From NCBI RefSeq assembly GCF_013366925.1, contig NZ_JAALDK010000001.1:372001-436000 (forward strand): a stretch of DNA of 64,000 nucleotides, read 5' to 3'. A program made the position numbers and the translations under genes. The stretch's first letter is position 1, and every line of letters starts with the position of its first letter. The stretch is from Paraburkholderia youngii (GTDB lineage: Bacteria; Pseudomonadota; Gammaproteobacteria; Burkholderiales; Burkholderiaceae). This document shows positions 10,947-28,712 of the stretch, piece after piece. Below the pieces are notes generated by a model. That model searched no databases, was not told the origin of the DNA, and worked only from the letters and a program-made list of their open reading frames with translations.

Positions 10947-12212
10947 ATGTTCAACGCAGGCGCGGTACGGACCAGGTCGAACTTCGGCGCGGGTGCCGCG
11001 CTCCTTCTGCTGATTGCGGTAGCCTGCCTCGCGCTGCGCATCCTGCACGTCGTCGCGAAGTTTCGTGGCGACGTCCCCGACGCCTTCGGCGATTTCAATT
11101 TCTACCTGTACGCATTCAACGTCGTGCTGCACGACCCGGCGCGCCTGTACGATCACGACGCGCTGATCGCGTTCTTGCAGGGCATCGGCGCGCGCTCGAC
11201 GGGCGACGACATCTTCTACGCCTACCCGCCGCAGTTCGCGCTGGTGTTTGCGCCGCTCGCGCTGCTGACGCCGCTCGCCGCGAAAATCGTCTGGGTGAGT
11301 GCGTCGATCGTGTTGTTCGCGCTGGCTTTGTATCTCGTCGTCACGATGGCGTACCGCGGCGCGGAGCGCAGCGTTAGCCTGCTGCTGGTGGCGGTCGCGC
11401 TGTTGAGCTTTCCGCTCGTCGAAGATACCTACGACGGCCAGTCCAACGAACTGCTGTTCTTCCTACTGGTTGCGACCTTCGCGCTGATCGAGCGTGGCAA
11501 ACGCTATGCCGCTGGGCTCTTTCTGGGCTTCGCGATCGCGATCAAGCTCACGCCTCTCGCCGTCGCCGGTCTGCTGTTGCTGCGCCGAGAATGGCGGACG
11601 TTCGTGATGGCGAGCGTCGTTGCGATTGCCTTGACGCTGATTACCGGAGCGCGGCTCGGCTTCGACGTTCTGTGGCACTACTTCGTGTCGGACATGCCGC
11701 GCCTGAACGGCATGGCACTGGCGATGAGCGGTGGCGGCGCGCCGATGAACAACGCCGTGCGGGGCGCGTTGCAGACGCTATCGGCGATGCTCGGCATGCC
11801 GATGTCCGGTACGTTGCTGTCGATTGTCTCGCATGCGTTGGTGCTGGCTGTCTGCCTGCTGTCCGCGTATCTGGTGTTTCGCCGCCATCGGGACAGCCGC
11901 ATCGACTACGCGCTCGCCTCGATGACGATGCTCGTGGCTTATCCGATCCTCGAGCCGATCCACATGGTGCTCGCGTTGATCCCGTTGCTGATTCTGCTGG
12001 GCACCGCATTCGAAGCGCGCGACGTGCAGTTGTCGGCGCTCGGTCCGAGACTGGAGATGCTGCTGGTCGCGGTCGTCGTGGTCTTGCTGTTCTTTGCGGC
12101 TCGGTTTGTGTCGTACACGGTCGCGGCGCTCGTCATTTACGGACTCTGTGTTGCAAGATACTTTCCACCGTCAGAGGTGGGATGGCGAGAGCGGGCTTAC
12201 CAGCCTGGATGA
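10947..12212 (+). CDS. GT87-type membrane glycosyltransferase (DUF2029)
   Basis: Polytopic membrane protein, 421 residues, with about ten hydrophobic segments. The first periplasmic loop DFNFYLYAFNVVLHDPARLYD and the motif YAYPPQFALVFAPLALL are typical of the GT87/DUF2029 family, related to polyprenol-phosphate mannosyltransferases. Such enzymes transfer sugars from lipid-linked donors at the outer face of the inner membrane; acceptor and sugar are unknown. GGAGAGACACC precedes the ATG at 10947. It is the last core gene before an accessory block, and its end (REERAYQPG-like, after base 12180) could be the original terminus or one altered by the insertion. Confidence 0.75.
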   Translation: MFNAGAVRTRSNFGAGAALLLLIAVACLALRILHVVAKFRGDVPDAFGDFNFYLYAFNVVLHDPARLYDHDALIAFLQGIGARSTGDDIFYAYPPQFALVFAPLALLTPLAAKIVWVSASIVLFALALYLVVTMAYRGAERSVSLLLVAVALLSFPLVEDTYDGQSNELLFFLLVATFALIERGKRYAAGLFLGFAIAIKLTPLAVAGLLLLRREWRTFVMASVVAIALTLITGARLGFDVLWHYFVSDMPRLNGMALAMSGGGAPMNNAVRGALQTLSAMLGMPMSGTLLSIVSHALVLAVCLLSAYLVFRRHRDSRIDYALASMTMLVAYPILEPIHMVLALIPLLILLGTAFEARDVQLSALGPRLEMLLVAVVVVLLFFAARFVSYTVAALVIYGLCVARYFPPSEVGWRERAYQPG

Positions 12213-12471
12213 ACGATCCTGGTGTGGCGCGGCTCCTCATAAGGGCTTTGCATGAAGGTGCAATGGGAATCAGAGAACTGCTCGCGGAGCAGGATGCAAA
12301 GTTCGTGAGCCTGCGGGCGCGGAGAGCCTCCATGTTCTTGCGGGGGCTTTTCTGTTTCTTCGGAAGGCGGACATTTTGGGCGGTCGCCCATGTACGGACT
12401 GCCTGTCGCACGGTAATTATCTGAATGCTGCCAACCCCGGCAGCGACTTCAGATAGACCAACGACACACCT
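12213..12471 (+). other. Intergenic stretch at the left edge of the accessory block
   Basis: No convincing gene is seen. Plus-strand codons from 12263 stay open to 12424 but have no ribosome-binding site or recognisable motif. A G-rich run followed by CTTTT near 12340 resembles the end of a terminator, but I could not build a strong stem. The composition changes from the GC-rich core here, consistent with a junction. No duplicated tRNA end was found that would mark a left attachment site. Confidence 0.4.
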
Positions 12472-13788
12472 ATGTCCCTGTCCGTATTTGAGATGCACTC
12501 CGTGGAGTTGTTCTGCCAGCGGCCACCAGGTGCCTGTTTTGTCATCTGTGACGAGCGGCACTATAAGGCGTGCCTTGGAAAGGCCGCAGACCGTCAGAGG
12601 GCCAGGGCGGAGACCCGGGAATTTCTTGAGATTGCCGCACTGAATCACAGGAAGTGGGAGGAGGACCGGAAGCTTGTCAGGCGGATCCAGAAGAGTGGCT
12701 GGCTGTTTTTCCATAGCGCGCGGCACCGCAACCCTGACACCGATGGCTGGTGGGTTATCGTGGCTCTTCTCGAAGAGGTTCGCCGGGGCAAACTGCTTGC
12801 CATTAGAGGTCCGCGTAATGGCCTGTTTCCGTCACCTTACCGCAGCATTCCGCTAAGGAATCCCGTAGCGAGGACCGGCACTCATCCGGACGGCGAACCC
12901 ATTCGGTCCGTCGAGTATGATCCGGCCACCTGGCAAGCCCAGTTAGCCGCTGCGCGCGCAGCCAGGGCGACATCGCCACACATCGAGATACCACAGGCAC
13001 TGACCAAGGCGCAGCGGTGGCAGACGCGCAAGGCGCTGATTGCGACGGGCAATGCGGCCATGTCAGGGCGCGCGCGGGCAGCGGCTGAACGGCTCGCGCG
13101 CAACAATGTCGCGGTGGAGAAGGCCAGACTCTCCGATCATGTCTACGAGCCGTCCAGTCCGGTGCCCGAAGGGTGGGCGAACCGCAGCGGGGATACGGGA
13201 TTTCTGGATCAATATCGACTTGATCCGCTTGATCTGAAAATAGAAGGTTCAAATTTCCGGGCGCAGCTATATGAACCCGATCCTGATGTCTTTGGCGGAG
13301 AGATGAAGCCCACACTCGCGTTCAAGGGAACCGAAATGACGAGCCTGAGCGACTGGTCGAACAACTTTAACCAGAGCGTGGATTGGAAATCGCCTTACTA
13401 TGAGCGTGCCGTAGATATTGGATGGAAGATGCGCCGCACACAGGCGCCAATTGATATTGCCGGACACTCGCTAGGTGGCGGTCTGTGTTCTGCCGCTTCT
13501 TTGGCCAGCGGCAAGGACTGCTGGAGCTTCAACGCCGCCGGCCTGCACCCGAAGACGGTCGAACACTACGGCGGCCAGGTCACGCCATCGAACATCAATG
13601 CCTACCATGTGAACGGCGACATTCTGACCGTCGCACAGACGTGGACGCCGCTGCCCGGTGCAGCCGGTACTCCCTATCTCCTTCCCGGCAGCGGCTCGCC
13701 CGTGTCGCGGCACTTCATCACGCAGGCAATAGACGGCATCGAGCAGCAGAAGGCGGAGGACATCACCGTACTTGAAACACTGTCATAG
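12472..13788 (+). CDS. Lipase-like protein (GHSLGG), candidate orphan type VI effector
   Basis: Putative phospholipase toxin, 438 residues, no signal peptide. The C-terminal half carries a serine-hydrolase core of the Mbeg1/DUF2974-like class: FKGTEMTSLSDWSNNFNQ near residues 283-300, nucleophile elbow IAGHSLGGGLCSA near 330-342, Asp in HVNGDILTVAQ near 381, and His in PVSRHFI near 415. The N-terminal 200 residues are charged and of unknown fold. The downstream gene, 14 bp away, encodes an exported ankyrin-repeat protein, a pairing well known for type VI lipase effectors (Tle) and their periplasmic immunity proteins. No vgrG, PAAR or other secretion gene is in the window, so delivery is unproven. 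An ordinary cytoplasmic lipase is the alternative. Confidence 0.72.
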   Translation: MSLSVFEMHSVELFCQRPPGACFVICDERHYKACLGKAADRQRARAETREFLEIAALNHRKWEEDRKLVRRIQKSGWLFFHSARHRNPDTDGWWVIVALLEEVRRGKLLAIRGPRNGLFPSPYRSIPLRNPVARTGTHPDGEPIRSVEYDPATWQAQLAAARAARATSPHIEIPQALTKAQRWQTRKALIATGNAAMSGRARAAAERLARNNVAVEKARLSDHVYEPSSPVPEGWANRSGDTGFLDQYRLDPLDLKIEGSNFRAQLYEPDPDVFGGEMKPTLAFKGTEMTSLSDWSNNFNQSVDWKSPYYERAVDIGWKMRRTQAPIDIAGHSLGGGLCSAASLASGKDCWSFNAAGLHPKTVEHYGGQVTPSNINAYHVNGDILTVAQTWTPLPGAAGTPYLLPGSGSPVSRHFITQAIDGIEQQKAEDITVLETLS

Positions 13789-13802
13789 CGAGGCTGAAAG
13801 CG

Positions 13803-14621
13803 ATGAAAGCACTCAGCCGAATCCTTATCGTGCCGGTGCTGTTACTGGCGATATTCCCTGTGGTTCATGCAATGAAAAAATTTCCCGCCACTGATTTTTT
13901 TAGCGGCCCGCAACTCGAACTGGCGCAGGCCATCGAGCGAGCTGACATGCAGCAGGTCCGGCGACTGGCTCCGAAGACGGACCTGAACACGCCCGGGCGC
14001 AAGAACATGACGATGCTGTTTTTTGCGTTTCAGGAGGCGTTGCAGCGCGACCCGCATCGGCTTGCGGTTGCGTCGGAGGTGGCGAGGGCCGGGGCCGATC
14101 CTTTGCAGACCGTACCGGATTTTGGTAGTCCCCTCGGAGTCGTGCTCAACAGCTCGCACCCGGAATTCCTGAGCGCGATGCTGGACGGCGGGGTTGATCC
14201 CAACACCATGATCGAGGGCCGCAGACCCATCATTTTCTTTGTTGCAAAAGAGTCGACATCTGGCTCACTCGAACTGCTGGTGGAGCGTGGCGCAGATGTG
14301 AACCGGCGCGATTCGTTGCGTAATTCAGTGCTGTATGAGGCGCTGGCAAATCGCGCGCTAGATCAGATTGACTACTTGCTGGATCATGGGGCGAATCCCA
14401 ACACCTACAACATTAACGGCGAGTCATTCCCATTAGGGATCTGGGACGACATTAATACCTTCGCGCCTGATTCACCGGCCTACAGGAAGCTGGTCGAAAT
14501 CCGGGATCGCATCATCAGGATGGGCGTGAAATGGCCTCCCGAGACTCCGGAACAGATAAGAGCACGTTGGGGAGCCAATCCTCCGCGCCGGCTCGATGAC
14601 AGCAAGCTTCCGCTGCCTTGA
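13803..14621 (+). CDS. Exported ankyrin-repeat protein, candidate immunity protein
   Basis: A 272-residue protein that begins with a signal peptide (MKALSRILIVPVLLLAIFPV, then VHA), so it should act in the periplasm. Three to four ankyrin repeats follow, seen as LLVERGADVNRRD, LLDHGANPNTYN and a degenerate AMLDGGVDPNTM. The C-terminus MGVKWPPETPEQIRARWGA recalls ankyrin proteins found beside type VI lipase effectors. It follows the lipase gene by 14 bp, which supports co-expression as a toxin/immunity pair. The immunity role is inferred from pairing, export and fold. The gene ends 17 bp before an integrase remnant. Confidence 0.75.
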   Translation: MKALSRILIVPVLLLAIFPVVHAMKKFPATDFFSGPQLELAQAIERADMQQVRRLAPKTDLNTPGRKNMTMLFFAFQEALQRDPHRLAVASEVARAGADPLQTVPDFGSPLGVVLNSSHPEFLSAMLDGGVDPNTMIEGRRPIIFFVAKESTSGSLELLVERGADVNRRDSLRNSVLYEALANRALDQIDYLLDHGANPNTYNINGESFPLGIWDDINTFAPDSPAYRKLVEIRDRIIRMGVKWPPETPEQIRARWGANPPRRLDDSKLPLP

Positions 14622-14638
14622 GGCAGAAACGGAAAGGG

Positions 14639-14794
14639 CTCTTCCAGTTCTTCATGCAGGATCGTGCGCGCCATCGCCCGGAAGCGGCGGCCGGTTATCT
14701 CCGTGCGCGCATCGTAGCCAAGTCGCCGAAGCGCGGCATTGGTAGCCGCTTCACTCATCGGGCGCTTGATATCGCATGCGCCTGGGAACCCGTA
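14639..14794 (-). pseudogene. Remnant of a P4-type tyrosine integrase
   Basis: The minus strand encodes about 52 residues that match the catalytic region of the integrase at 31163-32366: YGFPGACDIKRPMSEA, then ALRRLGYDARTEITG and FRAMARTILHEELEE. The complete gene has VFPGARDRKRPMSEA and ALRRLGYNTRTEITGHGFRA in the same place. The match stops on both sides, and the catalytic His/Arg box is altered (GRRFRA instead of GHGFRA). It is a dead fragment, probably of the integrase that brought the adjacent lipase/ankyrin block. Confidence 0.85.
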
Positions 14795-15048
14795 GCTTTC
14801 CGGCAAAACGGTGCTTGAAAATGCATTGCTCGCTGCTCGTTGGCGTGACGAGCAGCAGGCCGCCGCCGTACTGCTTCTGCAGTCTTTCGCCCGGTTTCGT
14901 GTTATGGATCTTGGCAACGTGCCAAACGACCCCCTGAAGGGGGTTGCAATCGCTGATGAACCCTTGGAGACCATAGCAAACAAAAACCCCGGTCAGCGCT
15001 GGCTGTCGGGGCTTCGTGGGGAACCGTTGAAACCGGTTGAAGAGTGTT

Positions 15049-15070
15049 TGGTGCCGGGGCCGGAATCGAA
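15049..15070 (-). repeat. Degenerate copy of the tRNA-Leu 3' end (candidate attachment site)
   Basis: On the minus strand this reads as a tRNA tail: TTCGATTCCGGC, then a 3' acceptor strand and CCA. It is a direct repeat of the 3' end of tRNA-Leu at 32536-32558, with one base missing and one changed. A GC-rich hairpin with flanking A/C run lies just beyond it (14990-15013), as also happens beyond the real tRNA. About 60 bp inside, ATACCACCAG-AAATACCACC recurs near 15124, similar to ATACCACCAG-ATACCACC near 32415. This fits the left end of the island. Confidence 0.6.
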
Positions 15071-15913
15071 AAATTCCTGCTATCGCCTTGCTGGAGCACG
15101 TTTGCGGAATTTTGCCTGTGCAGATACCACCAGAAATACCACCGGGCGTGGGTGCTCGCCAGAAAGAGCGAGCGAAAGCTTATCGGCGAACGAGGCATAC
15201 TGGAGTCGGCCGAGTTCGACCCTAAGCCGTCTCCCAGCGCCCACGGTTTAAAAGTCGCTTGTCGAAGTCTAGCGGGACGTCCGCCCACGCCGTCCACAGC
15301 TGCTTTTGGACTTTTCCACCGCTCGAACCCGTTCGCTTTACCGTCAGCTCACTGTCAAGCGGATGTGTGGTCAACCGCGAATAACCGCTCATGTGAAATG
15401 GCCCACGAGGCTTGAGGCACACGCTCAGACGAGGCGAAAAGCGTTGATCTTGGCGGTTAGCGGTACGTCGCGGCAGTCCCAACCACACCGGCCAGCCTCG
15501 GTTGCTCAGGCAGCATGACGCTCCCCAAGTCAGTACTGACACGCCAAAGGCAAGAATGGTGCAAAGCAACATCGCTGGCATAGTTTCGCGAGCCTATACT
15601 TCGCAAGACCGTTTCACCCTTGGGCGCTTTGCGATGATGTCATTCGCGATCGCGGACGCTGTAAAATCAATAGCATTTTCCTTGCAGGGATGCACGTCCC
15701 AGGTCGAGCAGCGCAATACGACTTACCTGCGCCGATTTTCCCCCAAGGGAGAAGCGCGTGAAATTCCGCCGCGGCGCACGGCGCGAACATGGCACATCCT
15801 GCGGGGTAGAGACCGTTGCTCCGCAACGCTGGCTACGCTGTCAGAGTGGTGCTGGGGACAAACGTAGCGGCGATCGATTGCTTTTCTCGGATGTCCGAAG
15901 AGGAGAAGCGACC
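15071..15913 (+). other. Non-coding or decayed stretch at the left end of the island
   Basis: Repeated ATACCACC units occur at 15124-15144. Minus-strand codons in 15222-15581 stay open and end in a segment (KVQKQLWTAWADVPLDFDKR) that could be a transposon remnant, but I do not recognise it. Part of 15352-15400 resembles the repeated termini of IS21-type elements; this is a weak impression. No gene with a ribosome-binding site was found. The last 60 bp hold the leader of the response regulator gene. Confidence 0.35.
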
Positions 15914-16615
15914 ATGAAAATCCTGTGGGTCGATGACCACGAACTTCTTTGCGTCGCTCTTTCCGAATATTTACAAACACACGCTTCGGAGCTGAGCGCA
16001 ACCCCAATCGATGTCACGCCCGTCTTTACGCTTGCCCGCGCGCTTGAAGAAGTCAACAAGACACCTTCCCCCGATCTGGTATTCCTGGATCTTAATCTGG
16101 ATGATGAGAACCGTGGCGCCGCGACACTTGAGCATTTCCAGGCGGGAAATCCATCTAAAGTTCCCGTGGTCGTCTGCACAGGACTCACTCCCGGGAACGA
16201 TCAGGAAGTTGAAATTTTGCGCATGTGCATGCGTGACTACGCCGCTCGGGGAATCCTGTTGAAAGGAGGCGCGCACAAAAAAATGTTCATTGGACTGAGC
16301 AGGATCCTGGGAGGTGAACTCTGGATTCCGGAAGAAGTCCTGCTCCGCTTTGCCCGCTCGACACAAGCGCCCTCAGCTAGCCGGAATGAGCACCATCTTG
16401 GGCTTTCTCCTCGAGAGTGGGACGTGGGGCGTTGCATTGCACGTGGCCTCTCGGGGAAACAGATCGCTAGAGAGCTTAACGTCACCGAAGGACATGTCAG
16501 ACAGGTATCCTGTGTTATCTACGACAAACTTCGAGTCAGAAACCGCGTAGAAGCGGCACTTAGAGTCAATGCCGAGTTGGGCGGTGGAAGCGGGCCAGAC
16601 AAGGGACCGTCATGA
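15914..16615 (+). CDS. LuxR-family two-component response regulator
   Basis: DNA-binding response regulator, 233 residues. The receiver domain (1-130) has the acidic pair in VDDHE at 7-8 and the phosphoacceptor Asp59 in LVFLDLNLDD. The C-terminal LuxR helix-turn-helix (about 160-225) is seen as LSPREWDVGRCIARGLSGKQ, then IARELNVTEGHVRQ. GAGGAGAAG precedes the ATG at 15914; the reading frame continues upstream but without homology. It converges on the fused histidine kinases, whose stop is 21 bp away, so these are its likely partners. The receiver has an unusual DENRG insertion after the phosphoacceptor. Confidence 0.9.
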   Translation: MKILWVDDHELLCVALSEYLQTHASELSATPIDVTPVFTLARALEEVNKTPSPDLVFLDLNLDDENRGAATLEHFQAGNPSKVPVVVCTGLTPGNDQEVEILRMCMRDYAARGILLKGGAHKKMFIGLSRILGGELWIPEEVLLRFARSTQAPSASRNEHHLGLSPREWDVGRCIARGLSGKQIARELNVTEGHVRQVSCVIYDKLRVRNRVEAALRVNAELGGGSGPDKGPS

Positions 16616-16636
16616 AGATCTCTGCTATACCGCGAT

Positions 16637-19600
16637 TTATGTTGCGCTGCGAACACTAGGACCCGCCTTCGGCCGATTTTCCTGAGGCTTATGTTTTGCA
16701 AGTAAGGTCAATAAGGTCTGTTCGGAAACCGGTTTCGACAAAAGCTTCATGCCGCTGGCGGCGACTTTTTTGAGCACGGCTGACGAGGTGTCCCCCGACC
16801 ACAGGATCGCCGGGATCGAAGCGTCGGTAGCCGCGCGGACCGCCAGAATCGCAGCAATACCGTCCTCGTTTTCCAGCCGGTAGTCTGAGAGGATGAAGTG
16901 AGGACCACTTGCCAGCGCTTCAATGCGCAACTGTTCGATGACGTCGGATGATGATTCCCCCGCCACGACGTAGCAGCCATGCTCGATCAGGCGCATCGAT
17001 ATTTCGATTCTCAGGTCGCTGTTGTCTTCGATGATCGCCACGACCATATCGGTCAGGTCCGCTTCGCCGTCTTCAACCGTTTGAACCTCGCCGAGCAACT
17101 CCGGCGGTATGCGTTCCACGAAGGGGACCGTCACGGAAAAACGCGATCCCCGCCCGGGTGCCGAGTTCACATCCAGTCTGTGACCAAGAAGGTTCGCGAG
17201 CCCCTGGACAATGGCCAGACCCAGTCCGAACCCTTTATCGCGATTCCTCTCGGGATTGTCGACCTGTACATAGCTTTTGAAGATATCCGCCTGTCTATCT
17301 TCAGGGATACCGATCCCGTTGTCCCAGACACTTATCCTTACGCAGGTGCCACGCCTCTGGCAACTCAACAGAACATGTCCGTTCTTTCCTCCCTGCCCGG
17401 AAGGCGTGTAACGGACCGCATTGGTCACCATATTCCGCACGATCCTGTCCAACGCATGCCGATCGGTGCGGACCAGATAGGGGCGACTATGGAGTCTTAA
17501 CCTCAGCCCCTTCGCCTCAGCCAGCGGCTGCATATCCGCAACTATGCCGCGTAAAAGGGAAGTCAGCGCTACCTCCTGAATTTCCACACTCCAGGTGCCG
17601 GACTCGAGGCGGCAGATATCCAGTGCCCCGTTAATCATCCCTTCCATCGTATCCACCTGCCTTTGCGCCATCGAGACGTCATCGACCATCCTGGTTGCTT
17701 CAATGCTCCGCTCAATGAAACTTAACTTCAGGCCGAGCGTGGTGAGCGGCTGGCGCAAGTCATGACTTATCGCAGCGACAAGCAGGCTCTTCTCCTCCTT
17801 CGCAGTTTCAGCCCGCTCTCGCGCCTCATCGAGAATAATCTCTTTGACATATGCGTGTTTCTCATTGTAAAAAACAAAAAACGCGAGTAAACAATAGCCA
17901 ACTAGTTGAGCCGTATAAAAGACCAGCATAAATGGCCGGTGAATAAACAGGGGGGGGCCAAGGCTAAATCCGAACGGGATAGCGCCGAGCACGAATGAAC
18001 CCAAATTCGCGCGAAGACTGGGGGCGAGCAGCAGCAAGGTAAATGTATGGCTGATTAGCGTGTACTCAAGGAAGCCAGAACTGGCCAATTTGACGTAGCG
18101 AGCTTGCGGCGAGATGAAATCGGGTGGGGTTAGCCCAAAGCTACCCGCTGCCCACCAGAACGATGTCAGCGTGACCAATGCAGCCCATGCCCAATCTAGC
18201 TGCTCGACCGCGCTGACGCCGGCGTGCTTCGGGAGCGCCATGGTCCTTTTCAGTAAGTATGCTGCCATGGGAGTCGCCACCCCCCACAGTCCCAGGGGCC
18301 AGACGACGCGGAACCAAAGATAGCTATCCGACGTTTTGATCCACGAGCCATACACGCACAGCAGCGAGGCTCCGACCGAGACCAGCGCGGTCCAACATAG
18401 CGCTCGCCGAGACAGCGATTGCAATAACTCGCGTTTGACGTAGAGATTCTGCTCAGCACTGAGTGCTGCAACAGGTCCCACAAAAAGATTCACAAAATCA
18501 GCGAATCTGCGGCGCCCGGTTGAGTGGGCCTTTTCATCCACTAATCGTGATGTTCTGGGCCGGGGCGGCGTTTCGCTCGCGTCAGAATCACGTGGTGTTC
18601 GAGTACAGGAAGCCATAACAGGCCGGCAATCAGGTGCGGCTTCGCTCCGTTGTGCTGGCTTCGTGTTTGCCTGCCCTCTCTTTCTCCCGTCATCGGTCAA
18701 TTTTTTTGGCTTATATTCTGCAAGTAAGGTCAATAAGGTCTGTTCGGAAACCGGTTTCGACAAAAGCTTCATGCCGCTGGCGGCGACTTTTTTGAGCACG
18801 GCTGACGAGGTGTCCCCCGACCACAGGATTGCCGGGATCGAAGCGTCGGTAGCCGCGCGGACCGCCAGAATCGCAGCAATACCGTCCTCGTTTTCCAGCC
18901 GGTAGTCTGAGAGGATGAAGTGAGGACCACTTGCCAGCGCTTCAATGCGCAACTGTTCGATGACGTCGGATGATGATTCCCCCGCCACGACGTAGCAGCC
19001 ATGCTCGATCAGGCGCATCGATATTTCGATTCTCAGGTCGCTGTTGTCTTCGATGATCGCCACGACCATATCGGTCAGGTCCGCTTCGCCGTCTTCAACC
19101 GTTTGAACCTCGCCGAGCAACTCCGGCGGTATGCGTTCCACGAAGGGGACCATCACGGAAAAACGCGATCCCCGCCCGGGTGCCGAGTTCACATCCAGTC
19201 TGTGACCAAGAAGGTTCGCGAGCCCCTGGACAATGGCCAGACCCAGTCCGAACCCTTTATCGCGATTCCTTTCGGGATTGTCGACCTGTACATAGCTTTT
19301 GAAGATATCCGCCTGTCTACCTTCCGGGATACCGATCCCGTTGTCCCAGACACTTATCCTTACGCAGGTGCCACGCCTCTGGCAACTCAACAGAACATGT
19401 CCGTTCTTTCCTCCCTGCCCGGAAGGCGTGTAACGGACCGCATTGGTCACCATATTCCGCACGATCCTGTCCAACGCATGCCGATCGGTGCGGACCAGAT
19501 AGGGGCGACTATGGAGTCTTAACCTCAGCCCCTTCGCCTCAGCCAGCGGCTGCATATCCGCAACTATGCCGCGTAAAAGGGAAGTCAGCGCTACCTCCTG

Positions 19601-20650
19601 AATTTCCACACTCCAGGTGCGGGACTCGAGGCGGCAAATATCCAGTGCCCCGTTAATCATTCCTTCCATCGCAGCCACTTGCCTTTGCGCAATTGAGACG
19701 TCTACGGCCAGGCTGGTCGATTTAACGCATCGCTCGATAAAACCTAACTTCAGGCCGAGCGTGGTGAGCGGCTGGCGCAAGTCATGGCTTATGGCAGCCA
19801 TAAACTGGTTCTTTTCCAGCATTGCCGCTACCGCCTGAGCTCGCGCTTCCTCGAGAACAACCTCTTTTACACATATGAGTTGCTGATCGTTGCAGATGTA
19901 CCAGGCGACGACGCAATAGCCAATTAGTTGAGCCGTATACCAGTCAAACATTCCCGGCCGGTGAATAAAAAACCCCGGTGCCATGTCAAATGCGAATGGG
20001 ATCGTGCCGACCAGCAGTGCACCTAAAGCCGCACGAAAACTGGGTGCGAGCAGCAGCAACGTAATTGCCTGGCCGATCATAGTCAGTTCCATGAAGCCAT
20101 ACCTGGCAAATTTGAAGTGGTGGCTATGGACGATGACGCCGATCACGTAGGTGGGTGGTATTAGCCCAAAGCTGGCCGCAGCCCACCAGAACGATGTCAG
20201 CATGACCAATGCAGCCCATGCCCAATGCAGCTGCCCGACCGCGCTGACGCCGGCGTGCTTCGGGAGCATCACTGTTTTTTTCAGTAAGTATGCTGCGAAA
20301 GGAGCGGCCAGCCCCCAGAGTCCCATGATCCAGACGACACGGAACCATGGATAGATATCCGACGTTTTGGTCCAGGCTCCAACTACGAACCAGAACGGGC
20401 TGACGACCAACAAAAGCGCGATCCAATATACCGACCGGCGGGACAGCGATTGCAATAACTTGCGTTTGACGAGGAGATTCTGTTCAGCACTGAGTGCTGC
20501 AACGGCAACCGGTCCGACAAAGAATTTTCTGAATTCAGCGAACCTGCGGCGCACGATTTCCTGAATCGTTTCACTCACGCCCACTGGTGTACTGGCCCTG
20601 ACATTTTCGCTCGCGTCGGAATCACTTGATGTTCGAGAACAGGACGCCAT
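16637..20650 (-). CDS. Fused tandem hybrid histidine kinases (two complete copies in one frame)
   Basis: One open frame of 1337 residues that contains two whole membrane hybrid kinases. Copy 1 is residues 1-678: about six membrane helices (70-255), H-box ISHDLRQPLTTLG with His289, N-box NMVTNAVRYTP, G-boxes DNGIGIP and GFGLGLAI, then a receiver with Asp582 in FILSDYRL. Copy 2 begins at Met679 (MASCTRTPRDSDAS, base 18616) and repeats the same order to residue 1337. The kinase and receiver halves are almost identical, while the membrane halves differ clearly. Copy 1 has a good Shine-Dalgarno (CCCGGAGGCCTT before ATG). The matching site of copy 2 reads GCCGGCCTGTT and is lost, and copy 1 has no stop, so copy 2 is read through. 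Convergent with the response regulator at 15914. The signal sensed is unknown. Confidence 0.88.
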   Translation of the reverse strand: MASCSRTSSDSDASENVRASTPVGVSETIQEIVRRRFAEFRKFFVGPVAVAALSAEQNLLVKRKLLQSLSRRSVYWIALLLVVSPFWFVVGAWTKTSDIYPWFRVVWIMGLWGLAAPFAAYLLKKTVMLPKHAGVSAVGQLHWAWAALVMLTSFWWAAASFGLIPPTYVIGVIVHSHHFKFARYGFMELTMIGQAITLLLLAPSFRAALGALLVGTIPFAFDMAPGFFIHRPGMFDWYTAQLIGYCVVAWYICNDQQLICVKEVVLEEARAQAVAAMLEKNQFMAAISHDLRQPLTTLGLKLGFIERCVKSTSLAVDVSIAQRQVAAMEGMINGALDICRLESRTWSVEIQEVALTSLLRGIVADMQPLAEAKGLRLRLHSRPYLVRTDRHALDRIVRNMVTNAVRYTPSGQGGKNGHVLLSCQRRGTCVRISVWDNGIGIPEGRQADIFKSYVQVDNPERNRDKGFGLGLAIVQGLANLLGHRLDVNSAPGRGSRFSVMVPFVERIPPELLGEVQTVEDGEADLTDMVVAIIEDNSDLRIEISMRLIEHGCYVVAGESSSDVIEQLRIEALASGPHFILSDYRLENEDGIAAILAVRAATDASIPAILWSGDTSSAVLKKVAASGMKLLSKPVSEQTLLTLLAEYKPKKLTDDGRKRGQANTKPAQRSEAAPDCRPVMASCTRTPRDSDASETPPRPRTSRLVDEKAHSTGRRRFADFVNLFVGPVAALSAEQNLYVKRELLQSLSRRALCWTALVSVGASLLCVYGSWIKTSDSYLWFRVVWPLGLWGVATPMAAYLLKRTMALPKHAGVSAVEQLDWAWAALVTLTSFWWAAGSFGLTPPDFISPQARYVKLASSGFLEYTLISHTFTLLLLAPSLRANLGSFVLGAIPFGFSLGPPLFIHRPFMLVFYTAQLVGYCLLAFFVFYNEKHAYVKEIILDEARERAETAKEEKSLLVAAISHDLRQPLTTLGLKLSFIERSIEATRMVDDVSMAQRQVDTMEGMINGALDICRLESGTWSVEIQEVALTSLLRGIVADMQPLAEAKGLRLRLHSRPYLVRTDRHALDRIVRNMVTNAVRYTPSGQGGKNGHVLLSCQRRGTCVRISVWDNGIGIPEDRQADIFKSYVQVDNPERNRDKGFGLGLAIVQGLANLLGHRLDVNSAPGRGSRFSVTVPFVERIPPELLGEVQTVEDGEADLTDMVVAIIEDNSDLRIEISMRLIEHGCYVVAGESSSDVIEQLRIEALASGPHFILSDYRLENEDGIAAILAVRAATDASIPAILWSGDTSSAVLKKVAASGMKLLSKPVSEQTLLTLLAKHKPQENRPKAGPSVRSAT

Positions 20651-21176
20651 AAGGCCTCCGGGCTGGAATCAGGGGCAGCTACAGACTATTGTGCTAGCAG
20701 TCCGCCAGCAAGTCGATGACAAGTGTGCTGTTTTAGGCCGAACAAATGTTCGTGATCCACGCAGGTGGTTCCAACCGCCCGCAGTACCAGCAAGCACGGC
20801 TCGCCAGTTGCGATATTGGTCGCTTCATGTATGCCGCGTCGAACTACTTCCGTAACCGGGCACGCTCCGTACTCTGACAACGGCATCATGCCGAACAATC
20901 GTAAAACGACACCGAACATTTGTTCTCCAGCAAAGGAACATTTAATACCGAACATCAAACTATCGACGCAATTACAACTGACACGGTTTCACGGCGAAAT
21001 AACGCAACATAATTTGCACAAGGAGGGCGTTAATGACTGCACAACTGGGCCGCCTTCTTCTCCTGTCGAGTTCCTATTGTGAGTACGTCTCCATAACCGG
21101 CCGGCGCGGAAAACGCAGTGCGTACGGGCGCCCGTATTGCCGCAGTGCCGGATAGACAACCATGAGGGGGTGCATC
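20651..21176. promoter_or_regulatory. Intergenic region with inverted GAAC-N4-GTTC sites
   Basis: This 526-bp region lies between the divergent kinase gene and the first DUF4148 gene. It carries CGAACAAATGTTCG at 20739-20752 and CGAACATTTGTTC at 20913-20925. The two 12-bp cores are exact reverse complements of each other, about 160 bp apart, and each is itself a GAAC/GTTC dyad. Partial copies (CCGAACAA at 20891, CCGAACAT near 20948) lie between and after them. The arrangement suggests operators for a dimeric regulator that controls both directions. No protein gene is credible here. Confidence 0.5.
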
Positions 21177-21182
21177 ATGAAG
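21131..21182 (+). repeat. Leader repeat, copy 1 (before DUF4148 gene)
   Basis: A roughly 50-bp sequence, CCCGTATTGCCGCAGTGCCG followed by GATAGACAACCATGAGGGGG and a start codon, recurs before three consecutive exported-protein genes (copies at 21623 and 22230). It contains the ribosome-binding site. The repetition shows that the genes arose by local duplication including their leaders. Confidence 0.75.
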
Positions 21183-21488
21183 TGGCTTATCCAGGCAGTT
21201 GCACTAGCGGGCGCGATCGCCGCGCCGATGGCGTCTTTCGCGCAATCGGATCAGCCGGTCACGCGTGACCAGGTCAAGGCAGAGTTGCTGCAGCTCGAAC
21301 AGAATGGCTATAACCCTGCTGCCAAAAACGATGCCCAATATCCCGCGGATATTCAGGCTGCCGAAGCGCGCGTGGCCGCGCAGCGCGCAAATGGCCAGGA
21401 TACGTCGGGATATGGGGCGCCGCTGGGCGGCTCGTCGCAATCCGGTTCTGGCCAACATCCGATGGTGGTTAATCCGGACGGTCAATGA
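21177..21488 (+). CDS. Small exported DUF4148-domain protein
   Basis: A 103-residue protein with a signal peptide (MKWLIQAVALAGAIAAPMAS, cleavage near SFAQ). The mature part has the DUF4148 signature of Burkholderiales: VTRDQVKAELLQLEQNGYNP, then YPADIQAAEARVAAQ. The tail is Gly/Ser-rich and ends in NPDGQ. The function of DUF4148 proteins is unknown; most are periplasmic. Start at 21177 after a GGGGG ribosome-binding site. It is the first of a duplicated series with the gene at 22276. Confidence 0.88.
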   Translation: MKWLIQAVALAGAIAAPMASFAQSDQPVTRDQVKAELLQLEQNGYNPAAKNDAQYPADIQAAEARVAAQRANGQDTSGYGAPLGGSSQSGSGQHPMVVNPDGQ

Positions 21489-21622
21489 CGCGTGGTGAAC
21501 GGCCTGCCGTGACGATACCGCCGCTGCGGGTCGTTTTCGTCCTTAGCGCCGCTCTGGGATTTGTCCTCGTGGCGCACGTTGTTCATTTTTTGCCATCGTC
21601 TGCCGTCTATCGTCTGTCGGCA

Positions 21623-21671
21623 CCCGTATTGCCGCAGTGCCGGATAGACCACTATGAGGGGGCCATGATGA
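21623..21671 (+). repeat. Leader repeat, copy 2
   Basis: Second copy of the leader described at 21131. It is nearly identical through GCCGCAGTGCCGGATAGAC and the GAGGGGG ribosome-binding site, but it now precedes a different small exported protein. The three-base change before the ATG gives GGGGGCCATGATG. Confidence 0.7.
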
Positions 21672-21946
21672 AGTCGCCTTACCACGCAGTTGCGAAAACT
21701 GTCGCGTACCTTTTGGTCGCATGCTCAGCATCGCTGGCTGCACCTGCTTTCGCAGGCGCGTACGTACCATGTCGCTCCGGCAGCGCAGCGACAGCAACGC
21801 AAAGCGGTAAAACGATGCCGTTGCACCACGCCAGCGTGGTTCACAAGAACAATGGCGGCGTCAACGGTGGCTTGCCGACCCCGTCGCAGTCCGGCAAACG
21901 CGTCCCCGGGGGCGACTCCATCGATCCCATGTATCGAGGAGGTTGA
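21665..21946 (+). CDS. Small exported protein of unknown function
   Basis: A 93-residue protein starting MMKSPYHAVAKTVAYLLVAC, with a hydrophobic core and AFA as a probable signal-peptide cleavage site near residue 31. The mature part is short, Ser/Gly-rich and polar (LPTPSQSGKRVPGGDSIDPM), with no known domain. One Cys falls in the hydrophobic core and one in the mature part. The start is chosen because GAGGGGG sits 3-9 bp before it and it follows the repeated leader. The frame extends upstream to 21485 without support. Probably a diverged partner of the neighbouring DUF4148 genes. Confidence 0.6.
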   Translation: MMKSPYHAVAKTVAYLLVACSASLAAPAFAGAYVPCRSGSAATATQSGKTMPLHHASVVHKNNGGVNGGLPTPSQSGKRVPGGDSIDPMYRGG

Positions 21947-22047
21947 TGCGCCCAAGCCAGCACTTCGAGAAAACTGGCACGCTGACCAGATGTTTCCGAA
22001 GCACGCTACGGCCGGGAATGGTGACCGTGCTTACGTGAGGAGGTCGC

Positions 22048-22254
22048 ATGCGCAAGTTCAAACCCGTAGTTGCGCTCACACTCGTCGCAGTGCTGCTGGG
22101 AGTCGGTCTGGCGAATTACGTCAGTCTGGCACACGACTGGCCGCCAGACCCGCTTTTCGTCCGTAACGCCGAGCCGGGGCCTGTCCTGATAAAGGACGTT
22201 CTTGACTTTCTGGTCATCGTCGATGCGCACCCGCATCGCCGCAGTACCGGATAA
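22048..22254 (+). CDS. Small membrane-anchored or exported protein, unknown
   Basis: A 68-residue protein that begins MRKFKPVVALTLVAVLLGVG, a signal anchor or signal peptide, followed by a polar, Pro/Asp-rich tail that ends HPHRRSTG. GAGGAGG lies 4-10 bp upstream of the ATG. The stop codon falls inside the third leader repeat, so the gene probably belongs to the same transcript as the DUF4148 gene that starts 21 bp later. No family recognised. Confidence 0.55.
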   Translation: MRKFKPVVALTLVAVLLGVGLANYVSLAHDWPPDPLFVRNAEPGPVLIKDVLDFLVIVDAHPHRRSTG

Positions 22255-22281
22255 ACAACTGTGTGGAGGTGCATCATGAAG
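22230..22281 (+). repeat. Leader repeat, copy 3
   Basis: Third copy of the leader at 21131, more diverged (CCCGCATCGCCGCAGTACCG, then GATAAACAACTGTGTGGAGG). It precedes the second DUF4148 gene. Here the repeat also supplies the last codons and stop of the small gene at 22048. Confidence 0.65.
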
Positions 22282-22686
22282 TCGTTTTGGCAGGCAGTAG
22301 GGCTTGCGGCCGCGATCGTCGCGCCGATCGCGTCTTTCGCACAATCGGAGCAGCCGGTCACGCGCGCGCAGGTCAAGGCGGAGATTCTGCAGCTTGAGCA
22401 GAATGGCTATAACCCGGCCAACGCGCTCGATGCCCAGTATCCCGCGGACATTCAGGCTGCCGAAGCGAAGATCGCTGCACAGGACAGCCAGCAGGCGGCC
22501 CACAGTGACCTTGGCGGCGCGACGACCAACGCCACTGCACAGGCAAGCCAGCAGGCGGGCAGCAATGAGGTTGGCGGCACGACCGTTGGCACCTCAGCTT
22601 CCGGCAGTGCCCAGCATGTGTCGAAGCCCTCGCCGTCTTCGTGCATTGGTCCCGCAAGTTACTGCAACCTTTTCTTCGGTAATTGA
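22276..22686 (+). CDS. Exported DUF4148-domain protein, second copy
   Basis: A 136-residue paralogue of the protein at 21177. The signal peptide (MKSFWQAVGLAAAIVAPIAS) and DUF4148 part (VTRAQVKAEILQLEQNGYNP) are closely similar. The tail is different: two imperfect repeats, SQQAAHSDLGGATTNATAQA and SQQAGSNEVGGTTVGTSASG, then a Cys-containing end (SSCIGPASYCNLFFGN). The repeats suggest tail growth by duplication. The start follows GGAGG in the repeated leader. Role unknown. Confidence 0.85.
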   Translation: MKSFWQAVGLAAAIVAPIASFAQSEQPVTRAQVKAEILQLEQNGYNPANALDAQYPADIQAAEAKIAAQDSQQAAHSDLGGATTNATAQASQQAGSNEVGGTTVGTSASGSAQHVSKPSPSSCIGPASYCNLFFGN

Positions 22687-22710
22687 CCGCTGATGGGCCG
22701 CCCGACACCG

Positions 22711-22749
22711 CGCCGACGATCCGGGTAACGTGCCTCTGGATCGTCGGGG
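22711..22749 (+). terminator. Inverted repeat after the DUF4148 series
   Basis: A perfect 9-bp stem, CGACGATCC (22714-22722) and GGATCGTCG (22738-22746), with a 15-nt loop. No T-run follows on the plus strand, so it may stop transcription only weakly or act as an mRNA-stabilising hairpin. It lies 25 bp after the gene end and 75 bp before lrgA. Confidence 0.5.
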
Positions 22750-22823
22750 CGTCATGGCTGTACATAGTACGACAGCTACCAGCTCGATTCGGCCCTGAAC
22801 GGTCCGCAAAATGAGGACAGTCC

Positions 22824-23294
22824 ATGGACATGAGCACAGAAACCGGCCCGGCGGCACCGACGCAGAGCGGCGTATCTGCTGCACCAAAGGCGTCGACGCC
22901 AGATAGTGGGGTCGCGCGATCGTTTGCAATCCTCCTTGGGTTTCAGTGTCTCGGCGAGTTGATCGCCTATGTCACGCGAGCTCCTGTTCCCGGACCCGTG
23001 CTTGGCATGGTGCTATTGCTTTGCCTGCTCTCGGCCAAACCCTCTGTCGTGCCTGCCGTCGAGCAGGTCTCTCGCGGACTGTTGAATCACCTTTCACTGT
23101 TTTTTGTACCCGCCGGTGTGGGCGTCATGGTCTTCGCGCCGCAGCTGAAAGGCCAACTGTCCGCACTCGCCCTTGCCATCGTTATCAGCACGATTCTTTC
23201 GATGGCGATTGCTGCGCTAGTGACAGGCATGTTGCTGACGAGGCTCGACAGAAAGCAATCACAACACAAGGCTGCGACGGCGCCACGCGCTTAG
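22824..23294 (+). CDS. lrgA: LrgA/CidA-family holin-like membrane protein
   Basis: Inner-membrane protein, 156 residues, with about four helices after a polar 30-residue N-terminal extension. LGFQCLGELIAYVTRAPVPG and PGPVLGMVLLLCLLS match the LrgA family, and HLSLFFVPAGVGVMVF is the diagnostic central motif. LrgA acts with LrgB; in other bacteria the pair affects murein hydrolase activity, programmed lysis or pyruvate transport. The stop codon lies within the 4-bp target duplication of the insertion sequence that now separates it from lrgB, so the protein is intact but the operon is interrupted. Confidence 0.88.
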   Translation: MDMSTETGPAAPTQSGVSAAPKASTPDSGVARSFAILLGFQCLGELIAYVTRAPVPGPVLGMVLLLCLLSAKPSVVPAVEQVSRGLLNHLSLFFVPAGVGVMVFAPQLKGQLSALALAIVISTILSMAIAALVTGMLLTRLDRKQSQHKAATAPRA

Positions 23295-24647
23295 CAGGCT
23301 GTTGAAAAGCGCCCCGTCATGACGACCGAAGCTATGTTCAGGAGACTTGCGCGTGCGATATTGCGCTGAATTAACGGTTCACCGCGCGATCTGCGCGGGG
23401 CAGGCGCACGCATGCGGCTCGTCTGGCGCGCAGTCTTCGCGCATTGGCGGCTCATCGCGTCGCTCCTCGCGGCACCATCCCTGGCATTCGGGCCATGCGG
23501 GTCAGATTGCTCGCAACCATCGTCAGCTTGAAGTGCTGGTCGACGCGCTTGAGGCCGCGATAGACCGTCTGCCGGATCCGCCCGATGGTTTTGCCCCAGC
23601 CGAAATGCTCTTCGATTCGTTTGCGGATGATCTGGCTAGTCCGGTAGCCCGCATGCCGCGAAGTGCGACCGTCGATGGCGCTGCCGCCCCAACGCTCATC
23701 GTTGCGCGCGACATGCGGTGTCACGTTGCGAGCGCGGCAATCGTTCACGAAGTCACGGGTGTCATACGCCTTGTCGGCGCCAACTGTCTTCGCATGAGTA
23801 CCTGGCACGCAATCGAGCAATTGCAATGCGCTGGCCCGCTCGGCAAAACCATCTGCGTGACTAACCACGGCGCCGACCACCAGCCCCGAGCGATTCTCCA
23901 TCAGGATGTGCCCGTGGTAGCACAGGATGGCCGGGCTCTTGTGGCTCTTCTTGAACAATCGCGCCTCCGGATCAGTAGTCGACTCGTGCGTGGCATTGCT
24001 ACGTCGCTCGCCTTTCCAGTCGGTGTCGGCGTTGCGGCCACCGCCGGCTGGCGGACCATCGTCCGGGCCGTCCTTGCGGCGGAAGCTTTTGTGACTGGCC
24101 CACGCCTGAATCAGCGTGCCGTCCACCGAGAAATGCTCTCTCGACAGCAAGCCCCGCTTGTCCGCCGTGCTCATGACTTCGGTGAAGAACGCTTCCACGA
24201 CTTCATGCTCCAGAAGCCGGTCGCGGTTCTTCGAGAACACCGAGTGGTCCCACACGGCGTCCTCAATCGCCAGCCCGACAAACCAGCGGAACAGCAGGTT
24301 GTAGCGCATCTGCTCCATCAGCATGCGCTCGCTGCGTACGGAGTAGAACACCTGCAACAGCAGCGCCCGCATCAGCTTCTCAGGCGCAATCGAGGCACGA
24401 CCGGTGTCCGCGTAGATGACGCTGAACAGCCCGTTGAGCCGTTTCAACGCATCATTCACCAGCAACCGGATCGGTCGCAACGGGTGATCTGCCGGGACGA
24501 AGTCCTCGAGCTTGACCGTCGTGAACAGGGGTTCCTGCATCTCGTCCATTCCGCGCATCGCATCCGCTGCCAAAGATCATGAACACGATATCCATAACGC
24601 CCGTCCTTCAAACCCCGTTTACACGGGATCCAAATTCAACAGCCTGT
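23295..24647 (-). mobile_element. IS5-family-like insertion sequence between lrgA and lrgB
   Basis: A 1353-bp element. Its ends are inverted repeats, CAGGCTGTTGAA at 23295-23306 and TTCAACAGCCTG at 24636-24647. TTAG is duplicated directly outside both ends (23291-23294 and 24648-24651), the mark of transposition into a 4-bp target. It carries one transposase gene on the minus strand. Removing the element and one TTAG would place the lrgA stop 30 bp before lrgB, restoring a normal operon, so the insertion appears recent. Confidence 0.93.
23452..24573 (-). CDS. DDE transposase of the IS5-like element
   Basis: Transposase of up to 373 residues, apparently intact. The N-terminal part (DFVPADHPLRPIRLLVNDAL, then LLLQVFYSVRSERMLMEQ) and the catalytic region (FSVDGTLIQAWASHKSF with the first Asp, TVGADKAYDTRDFV with the second, and the final Glu in RKRIEEHFGWGKTIG) match IS5/IS4-type DDE enzymes. 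A Gly/Pro-rich insert (KDGPDDGPPAGGGRNADTDW) is common in this subgroup. The true start may be one of several Met codons within the first 17 residues. Confidence 0.92.
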   Translation of the reverse strand: MAADAMRGMDEMQEPLFTTVKLEDFVPADHPLRPIRLLVNDALKRLNGLFSVIYADTGRASIAPEKLMRALLLQVFYSVRSERMLMEQMRYNLLFRWFVGLAIEDAVWDHSVFSKNRDRLLEHEVVEAFFTEVMSTADKRGLLSREHFSVDGTLIQAWASHKSFRRKDGPDDGPPAGGGRNADTDWKGERRSNATHESTTDPEARLFKKSHKSPAILCYHGHILMENRSGLVVGAVVSHADGFAERASALQLLDCVPGTHAKTVGADKAYDTRDFVNDCRARNVTPHVARNDERWGGSAIDGRTSRHAGYRTSQIIRKRIEEHFGWGKTIGRIRQTVYRGLKRVDQHFKLTMVASNLTRMARMPGMVPRGATR

Positions 24648-24681
24648 TAGGCAGATTCTGCCGCCGCAAGGAGGAGGGGCC

Positions 24682-25419
24682 ATGTCAATCGGTGAACTGC
24701 CCGTGTCTGTCAATGCGATCGTGGGCGCGTCGCCTGTGCCGGCGCTCACGGCAACCGTCGGCGTCTACATCGTTGCCTGCCGCCTTCACACTCTGGCGCG
24801 GAAGAATCCCCTGGCCAACCCGGTAGCGATCTCCGTGTTGCTCATGATCGCGATACTGTATTTGACAGGCACCTCCTACAGCGCATATTTCGCGGGCGCG
24901 AAACTGATTCACTTTCTACTGGGCCCGTCGGTCATTGCATTGGCTATTCCGCTACACCATCAGACGCCCAGGCTCAGACGCGCGCTTGTGCCGCTGCTTG
25001 GCGGGCTGATCGCGGGCTCGGCCACGGCTGTTGCCTCTGCGATTGCGATATGTGTCTGGCTACATTGTCCGTTTGTGACGGTCGCGTCGGTCGCTCCGAA
25101 GTCGGTCACTACGGCCGTAGCAATGCTGATCTCAGCAAAAATCGGTGGTTTGCCCTCGCTCACCGCGGCGATCGTCATCCTGACCGGCATTACCGGTGCG
25201 ACGCTGAGCAACGTGGTCCTGGATACCGTTGGTGTGCGGCGTGACGACGTGCGCGGCTTTGCAATGGGTGTTGCTTCCCACGGCATAGGTACTGCCAGGG
25301 CGTTTCAGATCAGCGAAGAAGCAGGCGCCTACTCGGGACTGGGCATGGCGATGAACGGCACTATGTCGGCGTTTATCCTCCCAGTGCTCCTGCCCATCCT
25401 GAGCGGTTGGTTGATTTGA
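24682..25419 (+). CDS. lrgB: LrgB/CidB-family membrane protein
   Basis: Partner of LrgA, 245 residues, with about seven membrane segments. LLGPSVIALAIPLH, SVAPKSVTTAVAM and MGVASHGIGTARAF are signature motifs of the LrgB family. AAGGAGGAGGGG precedes the ATG. It originally followed lrgA by 30 bp; the insertion sequence now lies in between, so expression must come from read-through or from an element-borne promoter. The coding sequence itself is complete. Confidence 0.9.
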   Translation: MSIGELPVSVNAIVGASPVPALTATVGVYIVACRLHTLARKNPLANPVAISVLLMIAILYLTGTSYSAYFAGAKLIHFLLGPSVIALAIPLHHQTPRLRRALVPLLGGLIAGSATAVASAIAICVWLHCPFVTVASVAPKSVTTAVAMLISAKIGGLPSLTAAIVILTGITGATLSNVVLDTVGVRRDDVRGFAMGVASHGIGTARAFQISEEAGAYSGLGMAMNGTMSAFILPVLLPILSGWLI

Positions 25420-25512
25420 CGAACTCGCTAAGCGATCAACCGATGAAGCAGTTGAAAAGGCCCGCTGTCGCGAGCTGACGACTGCGATACATTCATCGAA
25501 TGGTAGCGTCTG

Positions 25513-25728
25513 TCAGCCGAAGCGCGCCTCCAGCCAGTCCTGCGCCCAGTTCTTCGCATAGGCTATCGCGTCCTCGCGTGCGTCAAAGCCGGCCAGATCG
25601 CCGCTCGAGTGAATCTCGTACCCGGTGCCGTCCGCACGGCTGCCGCTGATGCGCGCGTGAGCCATGTACTCCCCGTCGGCCCTACGCGGTGTCGGGTCGA
25701 CAACGATCAAAGTGGAATTGAAGCGCAT
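25513..25728 (-). CDS. Small protein of an island-specific family (71 aa)
   Basis: A 71-residue soluble protein with no recognised domain. The last 25 residues (AREDAIAYAKNWAQDWLEAR) resemble the end of the protein at 29493-29717 (SEEQALQHSTQWALNWIDTR), with matching Trp and Arg spacing, which suggests a common fold ending in an amphipathic helix. AAGGAA lies about 10 bp upstream of the ATG. It stands alone, convergent with lrgB. Confidence 0.65.
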   Translation of the reverse strand: MRFNSTLIVVDPTPRRADGEYMAHARISGSRADGTGYEIHSSGDLAGFDAREDAIAYAKNWAQDWLEARFG

Positions 25729-25790
25729 AGGGGTTCCTTCAGGGTTGTCGCCCGATTGCGCTGTCGCATAGGGGCGTCGAAAAGCGAGAC

Positions 25791-26117
25791 TCAGATGCTA
25801 AGCCTGGCCATGATCTGTCCGGCCTCGTAATCCGACTCGCAGCTTGTCATGCCGTGTTCACGCAGCAACGCACGAATCGACACGAACATCAGAAACGCGT
25901 CTGAATTGACCTCGTGACGACAGTCACGGATGACGCTATCCAGTTCCGCCTCCGCGCCGGGCGGCAGAAACTGGTCGACGATGCCCGAGCCATTGCACCG
26001 GATCCATTTCAGCAGGTCATTCCTTTGCATATCAAACTCCAATGTGTGCAATGGCGCGCTGTCCACGACAAGCGGGTGAAGGTCCAGCCCGCGGTAGAGA
26101 CGGGACCGCGTTGTCAT
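25791..26117 (-). CDS. Small hypothetical protein (108 aa)
   Basis: Start chosen at Met of MTTRSRLYRGLDLHPLVVDS, because the YRG(L/F)D(L/I) opening also begins the protein at 27927. The C-terminal half is helical (AELDSVIRDCRHEVNSDAFL, then LLREHGMTSCESDYEAGQ) and contains three Cys. No known domain. An in-frame Met eight codons upstream is an alternative start. It belongs to the set of unknown small genes around the infA/rpsU/cspA paralogues. Confidence 0.55.
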   Translation of the reverse strand: MTTRSRLYRGLDLHPLVVDSAPLHTLEFDMQRNDLLKWIRCNGSGIVDQFLPPGAEAELDSVIRDCRHEVNSDAFLMFVSIRALLREHGMTSCESDYEAGQIMARLSI

Positions 26118-28603: not shown

Positions 28604-28712
28604 TTTTTTTTCCTTGGTTGAGATCCGCAAGCAATTGCGAATGGTGATGCGGATGTGCACGCAGCGTCGTGGAACAGGAACGGGACACAGCCGACAGTCG
28701 CATATCGCGCTA

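Follow-up and report, generated by a model that had tools for sequence, protein, structure and literature searches.

The DNA analyzed here is a stretch of 64,000 nucleotides from the soil bacterium Paraburkholderia youngii (the window), and its subject is a single open frame of 1337 residues, without an internal stop, which runs on the minus strand from 20650 to 16637 (start ATG at 20650-20648, stop TAA at 16639-16637). An earlier note, made from the letters of the sequence, had described this frame, without giving its strand, as two complete hybrid histidine kinases fused in tandem, each with a membrane sensor, a kinase, and a receiver. We found both the frame and its twofold order as described: Pfam places HisKA, HATPase_c, and Response_reg in two stretches each, and the motifs SHDLRQP, DNGIG, GFGLGL, LSDYRL, and LLSKP each occur twice. 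Judged by these domains and motifs, both units have the parts of a hybrid histidine kinase (a DHp domain with its His, an ATP-binding domain, and a C-terminal receiver with its Asp), and with two transmitters and two receivers in one chain the protein has the composition of a TRTR double-transmitter kinase. The features of the locus, with the evidence for each in brackets, are as follows.

16637 to 20650, minus strand: fused double hybrid histidine kinase, 1337 residues (open frame; Pfam domains twice)
19883 to 20488, minus strand: sensor 1, six transmembrane helices, residues 55-256 (AlphaFold2 models)
19625 to 19837, minus strand: DHp domain 1, residues 272-342, with phospho-acceptor His289 at 19784-19786 (Pfam HisKA; SHDLRQP at 288; helices in the model)
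19121 to 19615, minus strand: ATP-binding (CA) domain 1, residues 346-510 (Pfam HATPase_c; DNGIG at 436, GFGLGL at 466)
18716 to 19069, minus strand: receiver domain 1, residues 528-645, with likely phospho-Asp582 at 18905-18907 (Pfam Response_reg 530-642; LSDYRL at 580)
18617 to 18715, minus strand: linker, residues 646-678, made of the former end of gene 1, the spacer, and the 5' leader of gene 2, translated today (leader alignment; junctions of relatives)
18683 to 18685, minus strand: former stop codon of gene 1, now AGA, Arg656 (comparison with unfused genomes)
18617 to 18638, minus strand: eroded Shine-Dalgarno region of former gene 2 (anti-Shine-Dalgarno energy)
18614 to 18616, minus strand: former start codon of gene 2, now Met679, Ile in the related protein P0002 (alignments)
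17861 to 18457, minus strand: sensor 2, six helices by homology, residues about 732-930 (alignment to unit 1)
17603 to 17815, minus strand: DHp domain 2, residues 946-1016, with His963 at 17762-17764 (Pfam HisKA, best stretch 954-1018; SHDLRQP at 962)
17099 to 17593, minus strand: CA domain 2, residues 1020-1184 (Pfam HATPase_c, best stretch 1063-1177)
16694 to 17047, minus strand: receiver domain 2, residues 1202-1319, with likely phospho-Asp1256 at 16883-16885 (LSDYRL at 1254; Response_reg as two stretches)
15914 to 16615, plus strand: convergent LuxR/NarL-type response regulator, likely output partner, start codon uncertain (Pfam Response_reg, GerE)

The AlphaFold2 model of sensor 1 has six helices (residues 55-90, 100-127, 135-162, 183-200, 205-230, and 232-274 of the open frame), with a mean predicted local distance difference test score of 88.6 for residues 30-275. 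A second model, which covers the entire first unit (residues 1-650, mean score 81.1), continues the sixth helix into the DHp domain, which is followed by the ATP-binding domain and then the receiver. The total of about twelve helices proposed earlier thus has structural support for the six of unit 1, the six of unit 2 being assigned by homology only; hydropathy by itself, with five segments passing around sensor 1 and four in sensor 2, does not show six per unit. With six helices, a unit would begin and end on the same side of the membrane, and the models thus allow the linker and the N-terminal tail of unit 2 to be cytoplasmic. The end of copy 2 (16637-16700) is unlike that of its relatives, the usual stop being bypassed and the tail altered.

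Over an alignment of 2021 columns, DNA identity between the copies is 86%, far beyond chance, and their similarity begins about 45 bases 5' of each ATG, which identifies the stretch before Met679 as the old leader of a second gene. The second unit begins, as the earlier note had proposed, with its own Met at base 18616. The same note had suggested a comparison with related strains for separate genes and had read the fusion as the loss of the first copy's stop, and the relatives bear out both points. Unfused relatives carry two genes with a stop in between, and the stop of gene 1 is present in 13 of the 13 unfused genomes compared (TGA in 11, TAA in 2). Where Paraburkholderia tuberum reads GGG TGA AAG, the window reads GGG AGA AAG, with AGA as codon 656. 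In P. tuberum and two other genomes (G018 and G112), the reading frame of copy 2 extends back through the spacer and is interrupted only by that stop, with 69 bases separating it from the second ATG; G232 and G316, among nine further loci, share this in-frame arrangement with a single stop. Caballeronia arvi, C. telluris, C. catudaia, and Trinickia symbiotica have a shortened spacer and a shortened start of copy 2, which leaves the two genes adjoining or overlapping, and in other unfused pairs the spacer measures up to 383 bases. These alignments support a change of the first gene's stop from TGA to AGA and a fusion that is recent, unlike the duplication that preceded it.

The signals for separate translation of the second half have decayed, again as the earlier note had supposed. 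The ribosome-binding region is CGGAGGCC 5' of copy 1 versus GCCGGCC 5' of copy 2, with anti-Shine-Dalgarno pairing energies of -9.5 and -1.7 kcal/mol, respectively. The 24 other ATG-anchored starts lie between -9.5 and -11.8 kcal/mol, and three further copy-2 starts in overlapping pairs, each placed by alignment, between -5.7 and -7.7 kcal/mol. The window has kept the second ATG and lost its Shine-Dalgarno sequence, whereas P0002 has Ile in place of the internal Met, so that its second start codon is gone. The loss of the stop is thus common to the window and P0002 lineages, whereas each lost second initiation by its own route. A single double sensor is most likely what the cell produces, and its function we infer from its sequence.

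A protein search with the whole frame (7998 candidates scored) placed three full-length fused relatives on top; below them, among the best 120 of 2963 matches, identity fell to 36%. P0001, which represents a cluster of 35 member sequences, differs from the window protein at 4 of 1337 residues. P0002 (1335 residues, 90% identity) has the same linker, with 25 consecutive residues identical. In P0003 (1297 residues, 72%), a protein of Paraburkholderia sp. MM6662-R1, the junction differs from theirs and is shorter; as their contigs have equal lengths, P0002 and P0003 are probably on one replicon. With copy 1 alone as the query, the closest unfused protein among the matches listed was P0121, a metagenome protein, at 88%. 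In the sensor tree, P0003 falls together with P. panacisoli and PGU19 (support 98/97), in both of which the genes are separate, and a single clade of the copy-1 sensors of the window, P0001, P0002, and P0003 was rejected (approximately unbiased test, p-AU 1e-51). Because the P0003 sensors cluster with unfused pairs, one origin of all of the fusions would require re-separations, and we concluded from the trees that fusion arose twice independently, P0003 being the second event.

The unfused ancestor is an old arrangement, two separate hybrid kinase genes in tandem next to a convergent regulator of the LuxR type, found in Paraburkholderia, Caballeronia, and Trinickia. In a scan of the genus, 22 of 144 genomes gave a DNA match, many of them short. 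Among the strong matches that we read, two full copies are present in ten genomes (G000, which is the window's own, and G018, G112, G181, G128, G129, G125, G158, G048, and G042), G168 has one full and one broken copy, and the locus of G005 ends at a contig end. A family sample gave matches in 46 of 398 genomes, mostly short, and no further fusion among the nine loci read from it. Direct repeats between the copies reach 321 identical bases, 2022 bp apart, and no complete locus with just one copy occurred among those read; the lack of single-copy loci despite recombinable repeats suggests, without proving it, that two sensors are needed. The regulator ends 21 bases from the kinase stop, and a regulator 80 to 90% identical to it is present in 17 of the 21 loci searched, two of which (L050 and L086) are the same place and one of which (L090) is a kinase fragment. 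The four without it comprise three that end with the contig and one degraded copy in the window's own genome. By its proximity, this LuxR-type regulator is the best candidate for the output of the kinase.

Incomplete copies were seen as well. In L089 (G168), reversed 4418-7896, one kinase is broken into an N-terminal part, a different open frame of 394 amino acids, and a CA-receiver part. On the second contig of the window's genome, a degraded extra copy lies in pieces in three frames (G000:C2:1193587-1194413; L042 4585-5372). At a separate place in PGU19, a fragment of the second half of the kinase is accompanied by a response regulator copy of its own (L090, G158:C3, 4591-5937).

The earlier note had called the two units a tandem duplication. 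They are indeed tandem paralogues, but the duplication is old, being spread over three genera, and only the fusion is recent. In a tree of sensor plus DHp (29 rows), the 11 copy-1 rows split from the 11 copy-2 rows (support 100/99.7), 7 rows from P. panacisoli, PGU19, C. sordidicola, and G168 having been omitted from that test beforehand. Both sensors of P. panacisoli and of PGU19 fall on the copy-1 side and the single G168 row on the copy-2 side. A recent duplication was ruled out, since a clade of the two window copies was rejected in this tree (p-AU 2.9e-9).

The second halves of the genes tell a different story. Within genomes, the copies are 56 to 80% identical in the sensor, 68 to 95% in DHp, 88 to 100% in CA, and 81 to 99% in the receiver (16 pairs), and the CA tree sorts mostly by genome (14 label changes), a copy-1 clade being rejected there (p-AU 4e-44). 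At fourfold-degenerate sites, the window copies differ at 24 of 81 in the sensor versus 1 of 86 in CA; the CA difference is at most 0.04 in 11 of 14 genomes, with G018 at 0.11, C. sordidicola at 0.12, and G128 at 0.21, and between the window and other species it is 0.23 to 0.33. Purifying selection alone was ruled out as the reason for the alike second halves, because the fourfold-degenerate sites agree too, and these comparisons make gene conversion the likely cause of the homogenized CA and receiver parts. Exceptions to the mosaic are the sensors of P. panacisoli, PGU19, and P0003, which are also near each other, and the C. sordidicola copies, which do not pair in CA; when CA and receiver are combined in a protein tree, the sequences of G018 and G128 separate by copy. 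The CA and receiver parts of the two copies are 99% identical in the window versus 91 to 92% in P0002, and the window and P0001 copies form one group with P0002 outside, so homogenization probably continued inside the fused gene. By these sequence comparisons, the near-identity of the second halves gives no date for the duplication. The locus shows clearly how, within a gene pair, one part can diverge next to another that stays homogenized.

We propose, with a probability of roughly 0.6, that an old two-kinase operon became one gene whose product is a single-chain pseudo-heterodimer signaling to the neighboring regulator. The starting point is an operon of two paralogous six-helix-DHp-CA-receiver kinases beside one convergent LuxR-type regulator. 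In a spacer already open and in frame among near relatives, the TGA-to-AGA change joined the two genes, and decay of the initiation signals of gene 2 then left one 1337-residue chain as the most likely product. Histidine kinases act as dimers through DHp, and the chain would fold with its two six-helix sensors side by side and DHp1 against DHp2, the covalent link fixing a 1:1 ratio of two different sensors. The kinase halves would then phosphorylate each other and the receivers tune or pass on the phosphate to the neighboring response regulator, so that two signals would be read and one regulator driven. The intramolecular dimer suggested in the earlier note is plausible, given the modeled topology and the analogy of engineered single-chain chemoreceptors. 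In engineered single-chain Tsr, function was nearly normal with linkers of at least 22 residues, linkers of 9 residues or fewer locked the receptor on, and subunit swapping was shown (PMC4692393). The window linker is 33 residues long, and about 50 more precede helix 1 of unit 2; the Tsr results together with the six-helix topology favor a covalent pseudo-heterodimer.

In favor of the proposal, both units keep their motifs, and the ratios of nonsynonymous to synonymous substitution rates (0.10 to 0.41 against G112 for all four domains of both copies; 0.09 to 0.61 over four comparators, the maximum being copy 2 DHp against P. tuberum) indicate that both are under constraint, but these ratios include the time before fusion. 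Several points weigh against it. DHp1 and DHp2 of the window are 68% identical, the lowest of the 16 pairs, which could disfavor pairing within the chain. The linker of P0003 has about 5 residues plus the N-terminal tail, and as very short linkers locked Tsr on (PMC4692393), not every fusion need work alike. The assignment of the regulator as target is by proximity; the P0001 cluster of 35 was judged through its representative; and among the genomes whose loci were read, the fusion is confined to G000, the other complete pairs being separate genes.

The main rival to the pseudo-heterodimer is a relay of the TodS kind within one chain, from His289 to Asp582 to His963 and on to the LuxR-type regulator, in which the linkage would serve the order of the relay and not the pairing of sensors. 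TodS has two kinase modules with a receiver between them, a His1-Asp1-His2-Asp2 relay, and a partner response regulator (PMC4321377). The window protein shares the order HK1-REC1-HK2 with TodS, and its kinase and receiver motifs are intact in both units. Such a relay is the less likely reading, and two observations speak against it: CA2 and REC2 are intact and differ little from CA1 and REC1, so unit 2 has not been reduced to a phosphotransfer role, and separate proteins suffice in the relatives. A little less probable still is a tolerated fusion without new function, in which the long protein would be cleaved, or its second half started internally, and the kinases would act as they do in relatives. 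The retained second ATG of the window, the two separate genes of the relatives, and the single fused genome among those read would all suit it; the lost second Shine-Dalgarno sequence, the absence of a second start codon in P0002, and the two independent fusions tell against it. Very improbable is slippage on an A7 run at 18701-18707, which would yield a second, shorter product ending after receiver 1 and so both a single and a double kinase. The run is in the -1 register and that frame has an early stop, but the downstream RNA shows no stronger folding than shuffled sequences (z -0.28), the relatives shown have no A7 there, and the residues of P0002 are incompatible with one. That a sequencing or assembly error erased a real stop is less credible than any of these, for although the fusion is in one genome among those read and near-identical repeats might confuse assembly, P0001 and P0002, which are different sequences, have the same junction, the change is a substitution and not a change of homopolymer length, and the copies differ over their first halves. 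The comparison thus confirms a real gene fusion that is hardly an artifact, and the possibility left by the earlier note, that accurate reads would reveal a stop or frameshift, is largely answered by these two database proteins.

Kinases with two transmitters are already known but rare: a survey lists them as 51 of 4650 hybrid kinases and describes 262 TRTR loci that cover every possible gene arrangement (PMC3018481). The window protein resembles these in the alternation of transmitters and receivers; the survey counts architectures (PMC3018481), whereas at this locus one can follow the separate genes of relatives, the mutation that joined them, and a second, independent instance. With TodS and TmoS of Pseudomonas, it shares two kinase modules parted by a receiver in one chain, and it differs in that TodS lacks transmembrane regions and has PAS sensors (PMC4321377). 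The 1337-residue frame has no PAS domain (Pfam, E 0.001) and, given the six membrane helices of unit 1, is not of that soluble kind; it is further set apart from TodS by membrane sensors of six helices in both units, by an additional receiver, and by its origin from a known tandem pair. The six-helix anchor on a histidine kinase, seen in the unit 1 model, is also that of the quorum receptors CqsS and LqsS (PMC4821796), which are single units; the likeness considered here is one of anchor architecture. A Foldseek search of sensor 1 against PDB gave no match at E 0.001. For the kinase-receiver part, the best-scoring NCBIfam model was that of NahK/ErcS-type hybrid kinases (NF041832), at 263.3 and 271.9 bits per copy, below the cutoff of 400, which only the sum of both passes. 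An alignment of the double protein (A2) was set aside, as single kinases fell on its first half. No description of a fused tandem kinase of Paraburkholderia was found among the top-ranked open-license literature.

Double kinases are mostly known as finished products, and here the intermediate stages of duplicating and fusing are present in living relatives: two genes with a spacer between them, two genes in frame and parted by a single stop, two overlapping genes, a fused gene whose former signals are decaying, and another fusion of independent origin. Adding or removing one stop codon could thus test what covalent pairing of the sensors is worth. More tentatively, and with the odds somewhat against it, the locus may have repeated the route of mammalian membrane adenylyl cyclases, in which two old paired six-helix receptors, their sensors diverging and their common catalytic part continually homogenized, would become a covalent pseudo-heterodimer, here at least twice, the fused form being an obligate two-input gate in which neither sensor self-pairs. 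The cyclases are an analogy only, since their catalytic domains differ and the sensor match is in the range that unrelated helical bundles can reach.

The kinase locus probably lies in a genomic island spanning 12001-32000, as indicated by three features. G+C there is 0.55 to 0.61 versus 0.63 to 0.71 elsewhere in the window, an integrase (31163-32185) adjoins a tRNA-Leu (32536-32620), and an integrase-like remnant lies at 14639-14794. A search for the island ends found no exact repeat of at least 14 bases of the tested tRNA-Leu end in the window, and a plasmid collection gave two records, neither with 80% cover. Nearby, an IS5-family transposase (23452-24573) separates an lrgA-like gene (22824-23294) from an lrgB-like gene (24682-25419), as though it had entered their operon, and at 12472-14621 a predicted 438-amino-acid protein without a Pfam match is followed by an ankyrin-repeat protein.

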